Shown piece after piece: positions 7,050 to 40,121 of a DNA stretch of 64,000 bases. The position numbers were made by a program, and so were the translations under genes. The DNA lies in the NCBI GenBank assembly GCA_020532085.1, contig JAJBAV010000005.1, positions 1-64,000 of the forward strand. Reading direction: 5' to 3'. How positions within the stretch are numbered: the stretch's first letter is position 1; every line of letters begins with the position of its first letter. The notes beneath the pieces are model-generated. The model was not told the DNA's origin. It did not search any database and saw only the letters and a program-made list of their open reading frames with translations. Origin of the DNA: Candidatus Cloacimonadota bacterium. GTDB lineage: Bacteria; Cloacimonadota; Cloacimonadia; Cloacimonadales; Cloacimonadaceae.

Positions 7050-7319
7050 CTATCTGCGGATCTTCAGCGCTTTGATCAACTCTCGGTAGCGGTTGATGTC
7101 TTTCCGCTTGAGGTAATCGAGCAAGCGCCTTCTCTGCCCGATCAGTTTCAACAGCCCGCGTCTGGTGCTGAAGTCCTTCGAGTGCTCTTTCAGGTGGACC
7201 GTGATGTCGTTGATCCGCCGGGTGATGAGAGCAACCTGAACTTCAGGCGAGCCGGTGTCTGATTCATGGAGTTTAAACTCTGCCATGATAGCCGTTTTGG
7301 CCTCAGGTTTAAGTGCCAT
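7050..7319 (-). CDS. rpsO: 30S ribosomal protein S15
   Basis: The 89-residue protein has the full S15 fold, with signature segments [20 protein letters not shown] and [20 protein letters not shown]. It binds the central domain of 16S rRNA and organises the 30S platform. The length equals the bacterial norm. AGGAGAATGAA precedes the ATG. It heads the rpsO-pnp pair. Confidence 0.97.
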
Positions 7320-7465
7320 TTCATTCTCCTATGGAATTTTGAGTCAGTTTTTTGGGAGCCGCCGATTTGTCCAGTTCTTTTTTCCCGGCTGTCATGCAGC
7401 GGTCTTGGAAATCCTTACGTCAGGTTGGCCTGCCGCCTCTTCCCCATGTATCCTGACACTTCCGG

Positions 7466-25324: not shown

Positions 25325-25419
25325 TCGGCTCCCAATATCAATACGGTATCAATACGGAATCAATACGGATTTCATCCGTAATGATTCCGTATTGATACCG
25401 TATTGATATTGGGAGCCGA
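25325..25419. repeat. 46-bp-stem hairpin with 11-nt internal repeats, between convergent genes
   Basis: Positions 25325-25370 pair with 25374-25419 at 45 of 46 positions; the only mismatch is A25363/A25381, and the loop is TTC. Each arm contains ATCAATACGG three times at an exact 11-nt period (25337, 25348, 25359; the last is altered by one base in the right arm). The element sits between the 3' ends of the surface-protein gene and hydG. No long T-tract flanks it, so it is not an ordinary intrinsic terminator, though it could block transcription from both sides. Confidence 0.9.
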
Positions 25420-35184: not shown

Positions 35185-35378
35185 TTTATCTCTCCAGTGT
35201 TTATTTTCTCGACAAAAACAGGGGTCCCTGTATTCTGGTGTCCACGCTTTCGGGGAAAAGCTAAAAGTCAAGCAAAAACTGCCGGCTGCAGCCACCCGGA
35301 GGCCGCGGAAAAGGTTGAACGCCTTGATCCGCCAAGATTTGAGGAATTTTCACCAAGCCCAAAATGAGGACCCAAGAG

Positions 35379-37382
35379 ATGGGAATCTTTAAACTGCAGA
35401 CCGATTACCAGCCCAGCGGCGACCAGCCGGAAGCGATCGCCGAACTTGAGGCTGGGATCCGCTCCGGAAAACGCTTTCAGGTGCTTCTCGGCGTTACCGG
35501 AAGCGGCAAGACCTTCACCATTGCCAATGTGATCGCCCGGCTCGACCGGCCCGTGCTGGTGCTTTCCCACAACAAAACCCTCGCCGCCCAGCTCTACGGC
35601 GAGCTGAAACAGCTGTTTCCGGACAACGCGGTGGAGTATTTCATCAGCTATTACGACTACTATCAGCCCGAGGCCTACATTCCCGGCAAGGACATCTACA
35701 TCGAAAAAGACTCCGACATCAACGCCCAGATCGAAAAGCTGCGCCTCCGCGCCACCATGAGCCTGATGGAGCGGCGCGACGTGATCATCGTGGCCTCTGT
35801 TTCCTGCATCTACGGGCTGGGCGTGCCGGAGGAATACCGCGAGGCCCTCATCCGCCTGGAAACAGGGATGAAGATGGACCGCGAGGAACTGCTGGCCAAG
35901 CTGGTGACGGCCCACTACAGCCGCAACGACATCGCCTTCGAGCGTGGCGCCTTCAGGGTGCGGGGCGACATTGTGGATATCTATCCCGCCTATCTGGAAC
36001 ACTGCCTGCGGGTGGAATTCTTCGGTGACGAGATCAACCGCCTGGAAAAGCTGCATCCCATTTCCTACCAGAGCCTGGGCGAGGTTTCCCAATATCCCGT
36101 CTATCCCGCCATCCACTTCATCATGAGCCAGGAAAAGCTGAACCAGGCCCTGGGCTCCATCGAAAACGAGATGAACGAACGCGTGGCCTGGTATCTGGCC
36201 AATCAGCGCTACGTGGAGGCCGACCGGCTGCAATCCCGCACCAAGTTCGACCTCGAGATGCTGGCTGAACTGGGCTTCTGCTCCGGCATCGAAAACTACA
36301 CCCGCCATCTCACCGGGGCCAAACCCGGAGAGCCCCCCAATTGCCTGCTGGACTACTTTCCCGAGGATTTCCTCTTCATCATCGACGAATCCCACGTCTC
36401 CATCCCCCAGGTGCACGGCATGTACGGCGGCGACTACACCCGCAAGAAAAACCTTGTTGACTACGGCTTCCGGCTGCCCTCCGCCTTCGACAACCGTCCC
36501 CTGCGCTTCGAAGAGTTTGAAAGCTATATGCGCAGCGTGATCTTCGTTTCGGCCACTCCCGCAGATTACGAACTGGAACTCACCAGCGGCGAGATCGTGG
36601 AACAAGTGATCCGCCCCACCGGCCTGCTGGATCCCGAAATTGAGATCAAACCCATCCGCAACCAGGTGGACGACCTCATCACCCAGATCCGCCAGCGCAT
36701 CGCCAAAAACCACAAAGTGCTGGTGATGACCCTCACCAAACGCATGAGCGAGGACCTCAGCGTTTACCTTCAGAACGCCGGCATCAAGGCCAAATACCTG
36801 CACAGCGACATCGATTCCATCGAACGCGCCCAGATCATCCGCGCCCTCCGCCTCGGGGAATACGACGTGATCGTGGGCGTGAACCTCCTCCGCGAGGGCC
36901 TCGACCTTCCCGAAGTTTCGCTGGTGGCAATCCTCGATGCCGATAAAACCGGCTTCCTCCGCTCCGCCCGCTCCCTCATCCAGATCTCCGGACGCGCCGC
37001 CCGCAACGTTGACGGCAAGGTGGTGCTCTACGCCGACGAGATCACCGACGCTATCCAGACCACCCTGAACGAGACCAACCGCCGCCGCGCCAAACAGCTC
37101 AGCTACAACCAGGAACACGGCATCACGCCTCAAAGCATCAGCAAAACCATCGACCAGATCATGCAGTCCACCGCCATCGCCGAAGGCTATGCCTCCATCG
37201 ATAAAGATGAGCCCAAAGAGGAAAAACCCGACAAAGAGGATTTCTACCAGTATCTGGAACTGGACAACCGCGACAAGCTGCTGGACCTGCTGAAGAAAGA
37301 GATGAAGCGCGCCGCTTCCCGCCTCGATTTCGAACGCGCCGCCGAACTGCGCGACAAGATCTCGGAACTGGAGAAAAAGTGA
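35379..37382 (+). CDS. uvrB: excinuclease ABC subunit B
   Basis: UvrB verifies damage and positions UvrC in nucleotide excision repair. The 667-residue protein has Walker A GVTGSGKTFTIANV near residue 41, the beta-hairpin segment SYYDYYQPEAYIP near 92 that grips DNA, the DESH box in IIDESHVSIPQ, and helicase motifs GVNLLREGLDLPEV and QISGRAARNVDG. The C-terminal UVR coiled-coil (RAASRLDFERAAELRDKISE) binds UvrC. The ATG at 35379 fits the family N terminus (MGIFKLQTDYQPSGDQ) with GAGG 9 nt upstream; an ATG 15 nt earlier is less likely. Confidence 0.98.
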   Translation: MGIFKLQTDYQPSGDQPEAIAELEAGIRSGKRFQVLLGVTGSGKTFTIANVIARLDRPVLVLSHNKTLAAQLYGELKQLFPDNAVEYFISYYDYYQPEAYIPGKDIYIEKDSDINAQIEKLRLRATMSLMERRDVIIVASVSCIYGLGVPEEYREALIRLETGMKMDREELLAKLVTAHYSRNDIAFERGAFRVRGDIVDIYPAYLEHCLRVEFFGDEINRLEKLHPISYQSLGEVSQYPVYPAIHFIMSQEKLNQALGSIENEMNERVAWYLANQRYVEADRLQSRTKFDLEMLAELGFCSGIENYTRHLTGAKPGEPPNCLLDYFPEDFLFIIDESHVSIPQVHGMYGGDYTRKKNLVDYGFRLPSAFDNRPLRFEEFESYMRSVIFVSATPADYELELTSGEIVEQVIRPTGLLDPEIEIKPIRNQVDDLITQIRQRIAKNHKVLVMTLTKRMSEDLSVYLQNAGIKAKYLHSDIDSIERAQIIRALRLGEYDVIVGVNLLREGLDLPEVSLVAILDADKTGFLRSARSLIQISGRAARNVDGKVVLYADEITDAIQTTLNETNRRRAKQLSYNQEHGITPQSISKTIDQIMQSTAIAEGYASIDKDEPKEEKPDKEDFYQYLELDNRDKLLDLLKKEMKRAASRLDFERAAELRDKISELEKK

Positions 37383-37732
37383 GGCTCTCTTTCAAACCGA
37401 GTAGGTGATGACCGGAGAAACCCCCTCGACAGAGGGGTGCAGGACCATAGGCGGGATTGTTCCTTCGGGATAAGTTCATAACGGGTTGCCCTTTTCACCC
37501 ACCGCAATGCCCTGTCAGTAACGCCCTGAGCGTTCGCGTCCATCCCCCTCCCCCGCCTCCCGCCTGATCTTCGCATCAAACGCGGCTATCAGGCGGGAGG
37601 CGCGCCCGGGACCAGGGATGGTGCCTTCTGAGCCAGACGGAAGCGCTCCGCTGCTCCACAAGGTCGCCGGCAACTTCACAACTCCGCCATTACTTGACGC
37701 CACGGGCTGGCCCACCCGGTTTGCAAAGAGCC
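37383..37732. repeat. dispersed intergenic repeat, copy A, with terminal inverted repeats
   Basis: The left end GGCTCTCTTTCAAACCG (37383) and the right end CGGTTTGCAAAGAGCC (about 37717-37732) are inverted copies. The inner part 37498-37610 aligns without gaps to 48180-48292 (about 88% identity by eye). Its core is a perfect 14-bp inverted repeat, GCCTCCCGCCTGAT with ATCAGGCGGGAGGC (37555-37568 and 37588-37601). No transposase or credible coding frame is present. The build resembles a miniature inverted-repeat element; no clear target-site duplication was seen. Confidence 0.7.
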
Positions 37733-37824
37733 TTGCTTGATCAGCCTGGATCAGGGGAGTAGAAAATTGCCACTACCAAGCCGGGAGCGGTCAAACTACG
37801 TAACTGACTCCCCCTTTCCCCTCT

Positions 37825-37907
37825 CCCATTCACATCCCATTCACTTCCCGCTTAGTTCCCATCCAGCCATTGGGAACTAAGCGGGATGCTACTCGGATGT
37901 GAGTAGG
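37825..37907. repeat. hairpin with 11-nt periodic arms, between convergent genes
   Basis: CCCGCTTAGTTCCCA (37847-37861) and TGGGAACTAAGCGGG (37871-37885) form a perfect 15-bp stem with a 9-nt loop. The arms extend imperfectly to 37825 and 37907. CCC recurs every 11 nt on the left (37825, 37836, 37847, 37858), and GGG, GGG, CGG, AGG recur every 11 nt on the right (37872, 37883, 37894, 37905). It lies between the 3' ends of uvrB and the patatin gene. Apart from this and the repeat at 37383-37732, the 567-nt spacer shows no gene. Confidence 0.8.
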
Positions 37908-37949
37908 TTGGGGTAAAGGGCGGGTCCGGGCGAAAAAAAGTATTTATGA

Positions 37950-40121
37950 CTATTTGCGCGAGAACCAGAACAGGTCTGTGGTGTAGCCGATATGGAAGAA
38001 GAAGTTGGCTTTGCCGTCTTCGCGCAGGGCGAGTTTAACTCCCAGAGGGCCCACCGGAGAGCGGTAGCCCAGTCCGGCATAATAGCTGAAGAAGAGGCTG
38101 TTGTCGAGGCTCCAGTCAGCGTTTCCGGCTGTGTTGAGAGCTTGGGCGCCGGTTTCCAGGAAGAGGTTGGTTAGCGGCTCAAAGACCGCGCTGAGGGTCC
38201 CGTACTTGTATTCAGCCGAGGGGGCCTGGCCCTTTCGGTATCCGGAGAAACCCTCGGAACCGCCGAAATTGATCAGGTCCGTGGAATTGTCCGCAAAGCT
38301 GCCGTAATGGGAGCCGTAGGCAAAACCGACGCGGAGTGAAACGTACTTTGCCAAAGGCGCGTACACATCCAGGTTCGCGGTGAGGCGGGTGTAGTTTTTG
38401 GCACTGAGGGCAGGCCAGGGGGACAGCTCGGCCTTGGCGAAGAAGCGGGCTCCGGAGCGGGGAAAGACATCCGTGTCCAGGCTTTCATGGTACAGCTTCA
38501 AACCCAGCCCGGAATCGTTTTGCCAGGTGCTGTCGTGCAGACCGTCAGGTACAACCCCGGTTGTTTTGGCGCGGGAAAAGTAGCCAAAGGCCTCCAGGCT
38601 AAAGAGTTTATCCGCGAAGAAGCCAACCCCGGGCACAACCCCGTATTCGAGGGAATCGAGGCTGGCGGTCCTTTGGCCGCTTGCATCATAGCGGTAAACG
38701 CGGCTCTGGCGAAGCCAGGGATGGAGGCGCAGGTAGGGGGCATGGAAGTCGCCGAAATCCTTCACAAAGTCAAGATTGAGTTCGTTCCTGCCTCCGAGGG
38801 TGAAACCGCCCAGCAATCTGGAATTGGGCAGGATCAGGTCGTTGAATTCCGCTGCCGCGCCCAGGCAGAATTTCTCGTCGGATGAATAGCTGGTGTTGAT
38901 GTGCAGGTAGCGCGGTTCGCGTTCGCTAACATAGAGGACCAGGCGGTAACCGCTGTCCAGAGGCTCCAGCACGGGATAGACGGTGTGGAATTTCTGCGAA
39001 TTCCAAACCCGGCTGCAGGCGTCCAAGATCTCTTTGGGCAGGTACTCCGTGTCTTCGCGCAGCCCGGACCAGGTGATGATCTTGTCTGTAAGCACGCGGC
39101 TGTTCCCGCGGGTAACGATCTCTGTCACCGGCACCGAGGTGAGTTCGGTGATCCGCTCCGGCTTGGTGAACACATAGCCCTCAGCCAGCAGGGAATCGCG
39201 AAAAGCCCGGATCACATCGATGTTGGCGCGGGCGTAATCCTCTCCGATCTGCGTGATGGCATGGGCTTTGGGGTAGGCCAGGTTCCCGATCCCGGTGAGG
39301 TCAGGCTCCAGTATGAGGTCGCAGAGCTCAACATTGGCGTCGATGCTGGTGTGCATGGCTATGTTGATGATGTGGTTCAGGATGCTGTACAAGTCCTTGG
39401 GATCGGCCCCCCGCATGGAGGTGTTGATCTTCAGGGCGAGGATCTTGTCCGCGCCGAGGTCGATCACCTGAGGCACGGGCAGGTTTTGCAGCAGGCCGCC
39501 GTCGATGTGGGTGCGCCCATCGTATGTGAAAGGCGAGATCACGGCAGGGATCGACGCGGCTCCGCGCACGGCCTGGGCCAGTGAACCTTCGCGGTGGATC
39601 ACCAGCTCGCCGGTGTGCATGTCGATGGTGAGTCCAGCAAAGTTAACCGGCAACCGGGAAAAATCGCGGTAGGCGGCGGCTGGCATGAAGAGTCCGGCCA
39701 AGCCGAGATCGATCTTGGCCCCGGTGATGGCTCCCGCCGGAGCCCTCGGCATTCCTTTGGGGCTTAGCGCGAGGCGCAGATTGCCGTAACTGGGCCAGCG
39801 CCTGGCTCCGGGATGCAGATCCGGACGAGCCTGATTCTCATTGATGATGTCGGCCATGTCCAGAGTGACCATCAGGGATTCCACCTCCGCGGCCGTGTAA
39901 CCCAAAGCGTAGAGCCCTCCCAGGACGGAACCCACGCTGGAGCCCATCACGTGATCCGGATAGATCCCCTCTTCCTCGAGGACCTTGATCATGCCCAACT
40001 GGGCAAAACCTCTCGCTCCGCCGCCGCTGAACACATAGCCCAGCCCCTTCCCGGGCAGCGTCGCGATGCTGAGTAACAGGATGGCCGGAAGGGCGGCCAG
40101 CACTTTCTTAGAGGCTGTCAG
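37950..40121 (-). CDS. patatin-like phospholipase with POTRA and Omp85-type outer-membrane barrel
   Basis: The protein of about 720 residues starts with a signal peptide (VLAALPAILLLSIATLPGKG). A patatin domain follows, with oxyanion loop SGGGARG, nucleophile elbow GSSVGS and catalytic Asp in HIDGGLLQNLP near residue 205. A POTRA-like domain (VPVTEIVTRGNSRVLTDKII) and a C-terminal beta-barrel (ending HIGYTTDLFWFSRK) complete it. This is the plan of PlpD-type autotransported lipases and related Omp85 fusions, so it probably sits in the outer membrane and cleaves acyl esters. The start is unresolved: CTG at 40121 has GGGAG 6 nt upstream and gives the best signal peptide, GTG 40103 lies just past the upstream stop, and ATG 40193 is inside the upstream gene. 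Confidence 0.88.
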   Translation of the reverse strand: MTASKKVLAALPAILLLSIATLPGKGLGYVFSGGGARGFAQLGMIKVLEEEGIYPDHVMGSSVGSVLGGLYALGYTAAEVESLMVTLDMADIINENQARPDLHPGARRWPSYGNLRLALSPKGMPRAPAGAITGAKIDLGLAGLFMPAAAYRDFSRLPVNFAGLTIDMHTGELVIHREGSLAQAVRGAASIPAVISPFTYDGRTHIDGGLLQNLPVPQVIDLGADKILALKINTSMRGADPKDLYSILNHIINIAMHTSIDANVELCDLILEPDLTGIGNLAYPKAHAITQIGEDYARANIDVIRAFRDSLLAEGYVFTKPERITELTSVPVTEIVTRGNSRVLTDKIITWSGLREDTEYLPKEILDACSRVWNSQKFHTVYPVLEPLDSGYRLVLYVSEREPRYLHINTSYSSDEKFCLGAAAEFNDLILPNSRLLGGFTLGGRNELNLDFVKDFGDFHAPYLRLHPWLRQSRVYRYDASGQRTASLDSLEYGVVPGVGFFADKLFSLEAFGYFSRAKTTGVVPDGLHDSTWQNDSGLGLKLYHESLDTDVFPRSGARFFAKAELSPWPALSAKNYTRLTANLDVYAPLAKYVSLRVGFAYGSHYGSFADNSTDLINFGGSEGFSGYRKGQAPSAEYKYGTLSAVFEPLTNLFLETGAQALNTAGNADWSLDNSLFFSYYAGLGYRSPVGPLGVKLALREDGKANFFFHIGYTTDLFWFSRK

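Follow-up and report, generated by a model that had tools for sequence, protein, structure and literature searches.

The hairpin at 37806-37926, between uvrB and a patatin-like gene, is one copy of a dispersed repeat. We give about an even chance to the reading that it is a non-autonomous, REP-like intergenic element built from inverted arrays of 11-bp putative protein-recognition modules. The repeats are dispersed and lie between genes, and the 11-nt period recurs across families unrelated in sequence. One family (A) undergoes concerted evolution; in the other (B), to which the present copy belongs, module positions are conserved without arm-to-arm covariation. A preliminary description had paired this hairpin with one at 25325 as two sequences of one design. 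Beyond that, both hairpins proved to be copies of dispersed repeats, and the uvrB-patatin gap holds two more such repeats. Hence, the question shifts from a single locus to a repeat population.

The DNA examined belongs to a Candidatus Cloacimonadota MAG (its own genome, G000, 2.81 Mb). The window, meaning the whole stretch that was analysed, is 64,000 nt long. All data are genome sequences, mostly MAGs. The features discussed below are as follows.

35364..37382, plus strand: uvrB, left neighbor, a 672-aa ORF (gene call; name from the preliminary description and sequence inspection)
37383..37455, plus strand: element E, a short dispersed repeat in the uvrB-patatin gap, GTAG followed by a small hairpin (CCCCCTCGACAGAGGGG)
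37497..37679, no strand: element D, a longer dispersed repeat in the same gap with a related module hairpin centered at about 37576 (copies in G000 and G002, hairpin scan)
37806..37926, no strand: family B element, inverted 11-nt module arrays with a 9-nt loop (inverted repeat 37806-37861 / 37871-37926)
37806..37861, plus strand: left arm, CCC-type modules TCCCATTCACA / TCCCATTCACT / TCCCGCTTAGT at 37824-37856, outer part CCCTTTCCCCTC (sequence, module table)
37846..37886, no strand: core stem and loop, perfect 16 bp, 37846-37861 / 37871-37886 (RNA fold, sequence)
37871..37926, plus strand: right arm, minus-strand reading CCCTTTACCCC AACCTACTCAC ATCCGAGTAGC ATCCCGCTTAG TTCCC (sequence, module table)
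37950..40103, minus strand: patatin-like phospholipase / outer-membrane protein gene, right neighbor (ORF, gene call; GxSxG patatin motif in the translation)
25325..25419, no strand: family A element, three units of TCAATACGG plus 2 nt per arm, an almost perfect hairpin (inverted repeat)

The 37806-37926 hairpin has arms of 56 nt with 77% complementarity by inverted-repeat search. The perfect core of the preliminary description stands, at 16 bp rather than 15, and the whole inverted repeat is larger than had been drawn. The reported 11-nt recurrence was found at exactly the coordinates given for it. CCC falls at 37825, 37836, 37847 and 37858 in the left arm, and GGG, GGG, CGG and AGG at 37872, 37883, 37894 and 37905 in the right, each step being exactly 11 nt; a tandem repeat finder returned a period of 11 over 37824-37849. 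Self-match at lag 11 is 26/45 on the left and 23/45 on the right, which is beyond chance at p of about 0.0008 per arm (permutation p = 0.00075 and 0.00085, respectively, rising to 0.004-0.006 if any lag from 8 to 14 is allowed). The junction is convergent, as had been stated: the uvrB stop (37382, plus strand) faces that of the patatin-like gene (37950, minus strand), and the hairpin lies 424 nt from the former and 24 nt from the latter. By inspection of the sequence, no U-tract adjoins the hairpin. An Rfam search of the window found no known RNA family at either hairpin; the sole match in the window was a ribosomal S15 leader at 7263-7407 on the minus strand.

The other two repeats of the gap are also widespread. 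Copies of element D, 77-82% identical, are numerous in G000 and G002. Element E, with its GTAG tag and small hairpin, resembles a true REP; it has copies in G000, G010, G012, G004 and G006, and short matches lie near tyrosine-transposase genes.

How general is the 11-nt period? Counts for G000 come from genome searches plus 464 kb of contiguous stretches and the window, a long hairpin being defined as one with at least 26 of 40 positions paired. There were 31 long hairpins, against 0-1 in a shuffled control at the same threshold; shuffled sequence does not yield them in equal number. At lag 11 they match themselves at a mean of 0.496, compared with 0.20-0.35 (about 0.25) at every other lag. 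Eight further genomes of the family, scanned without bias (779 kb, 39 hairpins), gave 0.498 at lag 11. Ten genomes from other families of the order (335 kb) gave 0.33 with no clear peak, in what is a small control of nine hairpins, and 200 kb of E. coli held two hairpins, neither peaking at 11. The arms of the 25325 hairpin also have a period of 11, so the two hairpins do share a design despite unrelated sequences, and the lag-11 peak recurs across sequence-unrelated hairpins throughout the sampled same-family genomes. The module units are not the same from genome to genome: G001 has CTTAATCAAGC, G006 has GTCTATCACTT as a second family, G009 has TTAGCTCTCTC, G019 has ATCAAGAGCAA, and G021 has both CCGTAACACTT and ATATCATTCCC. 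When hairpins were grouped by shared words, 9 of 28 sequence clusters peaked at lag 11 (one of the nine being a weak single hairpin), and these held 45 of the 70 hairpins. From these comparisons, it seems that a shared layout with an 11-nt period is kept while sequence changes in the sampled same-family genomes. The families may be distant homologues whose common period is inherited rather than independently selected; hence, we do not count them as independent origins. The open-licence literature yielded no description of an 11-nt-period hairpin repeat. The genome of the window also holds another design, namely long hairpins of period 9 (L140, about 7266; L138, about 4988; L143, about 19425 and 19774) with units such as CTTCTAAAC and AACAGGAT-like words.

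Genomic position was scored for 44 period-11 hairpins in 1.24 Mb from nine genomes, with genes called by a codon-usage script; 42 could be classified. None of the 44 lies in a gene, though coding sequence makes up 85% of the sampled DNA. Of the 42, 20 lie in convergent gaps, where intergenic length predicts 9.3 (p = 0.0003), so the convergent placement noted at the two original loci extends to the sample. Co-directional gaps hold 14/42 (22.2 expected) and divergent gaps 8/42 (10.5 expected); 34/42 are thus convergent or co-directional. Family A in G000 shows little preference (10 convergent, 8 co-directional and 7 divergent; n = 25). Known REPs also favor convergent and co-directional gaps (PMC3733652), and the convergent bias alone is therefore no argument for a transcription block.

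In family A, the arms of the 25325 hairpin are 46 nt long and 98% complementary, and the genome carries at least 40 near-identical copies of it. Counted as half-arm arrays, the triple unit TCAWTACGG-NN is present there 128 times, which at two per element corresponds to about 64 elements. One copy (G000:C6:47486-47565) has four units in one arm, so the number of units can change. Copies are 99.0% identical within G000 and 92-93% within each of four congeners; between G000 and these congeners identity is 83-89%, and with G010 it is 86.7%. At five flank-matched site pairs with G010 or G012, A copies are 85-94% alike between species, while the G000 copies at the same sites are 98.7-99.4% identical to their own paralogs (L009/L097 and L032/L039 share the same junction; the flank is less certain in the other pairs). 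Being alike within a genome and diverged at shared sites between species, the copies argue that family A undergoes concerted evolution, and the pattern at shared sites calls for in-place conversion or repeated replacement. The preliminary description had offered an active process or a selected structure, and these identities support the active process. The two A arms pair almost without mismatch, and their TCAATACGG units are joined by 2-nt linkers that vary with the species yet agree in both arms; this matching and the near-perfect pairing also fit a selected hairpin.

No target-site duplication was seen at A copies, direct identity being at most 1 base, and that base reflecting the unlike ends. 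There was also no clean empty site: the gap syntenic to that of L014 in G002 holds a different, D-like repeat, and the alignment is poor. A mobile vector carrying A or B was rejected as a candidate, since A and B words had no exact match in IMG/VR, a test that detects close relatives only. Six A copies (L020, L021, L025, L027, L028 and L034), several of which sit at contig ends, are bordered at their base, to within a few bases, by an IS with ends TGTCTCGTCCTAAAAAAGTTGACA, and in G020 an A-like hairpin (L135) is bordered by a similar IS end. The hairpin foot appears to be the target of this IS.

Family B behaves differently in its arms. BLAST found 42 matches to it in its own genome (2.81 Mb), and there are at least 29 good copies with both arms anchored. 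Across these 29, complementarity is 71.1% between arms of the same copy and 71.3% between arms of different copies (permutation p about 0.5), and folding energy is -66.5 for real copies and -66.4 for arm-swapped ones. By both comparisons, there is no arm-to-arm covariation in the 29 copies. We conclude that RNA pairing is not the conserved property in B, and the folded RNA 3' end suggested in the preliminary description is not supported for this family. Certain module positions are conserved. The arms draw on a small vocabulary of 11-mers (CCCATTCACTT, CTTGTCCGCCT, CCCGCTTAGTT and others) in which the first C, the ninth C and the last T are nearly invariant and other positions show either of two bases at roughly equal frequency. 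Within a copy, the CAC/CGC types of the two arms tend to be opposite, and neither strand is preferred relative to the nearest gene end. An orthologous B copy beside the patatin gene in G002 carries three changes matched in both arms; judged from these, the inner module of B may be partly constrained.

Are these elements simply REPs, that is, single-stranded DNA hairpins mobilized by a Y1 tyrosine transposase (a RAYT or an IS200-like TnpA)? We consider this possible, if doubtful. REPs, BIMEs and REPINs are high-copy, intergenic and palindromic, with paired inverted units and species-specific sequences (PMC3733652, PMC3116915), and A and B share all of these traits along with enrichment near 3' ends and in convergent gaps. 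Y1 transposases are encoded in the genome of the window (seven Y1_Tnp genes) and in 28/41 relatives. In both G000 (L189, C2:76800-80300, with the gene at C2:78044-78678) and G010 (L202, C54), an A element lies about 300 nt downstream of a 211-aa RAYT-like gene; TnpA-like genes likewise have an A element, immediately 3' in G006 and nearby in G010. Most G000 copies of A also keep a near-tip mismatch, as some REPs do. However, A and B are 90-120 bp long with arms of 11-nt tandem modules, whereas REPs are palindromes of 20-40 bp (PMC3733652), and neither the base frequencies flanking A nor the B copies revealed a GTAG or CGTC tag. Moreover, period-11 elements occur in two genomes with no Y1_Tnp match: G002, which has many B copies and is 98% complete, and G009, which has its own period-11 family and is 93% complete. 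A copies are numerous in G008 and G012, where the 211-aa RAYT has no relative; this is weak evidence because both genomes are incomplete. A Y1 transposase is still the best-known candidate for the putative copying activity.

Other known systems resemble the elements in part. Bacterial MITEs (Correia/NEMIS, ERIC, RUP and BOX) are likewise dispersed hairpins of about 100 bp, BOX being modular (PMC2229807, PMC3049150). A and B differ from them in that neither a target-site duplication nor a parent IS was found: no parent autonomous element was seen in the loci read, and the IS at the six A copies has its own ends. An 11-nt period is not described for MITEs in the open-licence literature searched. 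A second resemblance concerns spacing. Directly repeated DnaA boxes and iterons are 9-mers spaced 2 bp apart, with one on each helical turn. Family A, with nine conserved bases and a 2-base linker, has the same spacing, in resemblance only: its sequence is not a DnaA box, and it forms inverted-pair arrays in dozens of species-specific copies per genome. DNA uptake sequences paired as terminators likewise consist of a short word, present as inverted pairs where genes converge, but TCAATACGG is not a scattered single word. It occurs once as a singleton in 464 kb, where 3.5 matches are expected at random, and we rejected the uptake-sequence reading on this lack of overrepresentation.

It is unlikely, in our judgment, that the elements are selected RNA structures at mRNA 3' ends, acting as bidirectional terminators or 3' stabilizers for convergent genes. 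The excess in convergent gaps agrees with such a role, as do the extreme folding energies (z = -8.0 for the 37806-37926 hairpin, and -16.6), the many copies that begin 15-130 nt past a stop codon and the pairing that family A keeps across species. Against it, TTTT occurs on 19% of 3' sides in A and 9% in B, with a background of 13.6%; we rejected an intrinsic terminator on this lack of a U-tract excess. The co-directional and divergent copies likewise count against the suggestion of the preliminary description that the design blocks transcription in both directions or folds an mRNA 3' end, and in family A divergent gaps are as frequent as length predicts (7/25). The B arms neither covary nor favor a strand, and a terminator needs no 11-nt internal period. 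Hence, neither U-tracts nor divergent-gap copies nor covariation lend support to a terminator or RNA function, though family A is still compatible with one. More improbable still is a mutational by-product with no selected function, in which palindromes recombine and template each other through hairpin cleavage, ectopic repair or slippage: this would homogenize copies and lengthen arms in helical-turn steps, in keeping with the concerted evolution of A, its changing unit number and a loop orientation apparently unlinked to end orientation in the copies inspected, but neutral homogenization does not predict the nearly invariant positions beside freely varying ones in B, and extra assumptions are needed for the one-family phylogenetic limit and the restriction to gaps.

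We return to inverted arrays of one-turn modules. Each 11-bp module, about one duplex turn, would be a recognition unit, and a trans-acting multimeric protein would read one module after the next on a single face. Elements would be copied or converted genome-wide, in trans, by this activity or by one linked to it. We propose that such copying or conversion would homogenize copies within a genome and replace their sequence rapidly between species with the spacing kept, and that convergent gaps would be preferred because insertions there spare promoters and genes. The hairpin fold would be a consequence of two oppositely oriented arrays, perhaps used as a single-stranded intermediate in family A. 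Only tentatively do we extend this to a class of elements, within one bacterial family, conserved in geometry (inverted 11-nt module arrays) and not in sequence, whose modules each lineage would rewrite genome-wide by putative dedicated copying or conversion machinery.

If this reading is right, the family would possess a repeat system whose spacing is under selection while its sequence turns over between species, and hence a protein that reads the modules would be expected to exist and to co-evolve with that system. The elements would then offer a natural set of matched sites for finding that protein. They would also be a case of concerted evolution among dispersed bacterial repeats of about 90 bp, and would partly explain breaks in metagenome assemblies, several contigs ending near A copies with an adjoining IS.
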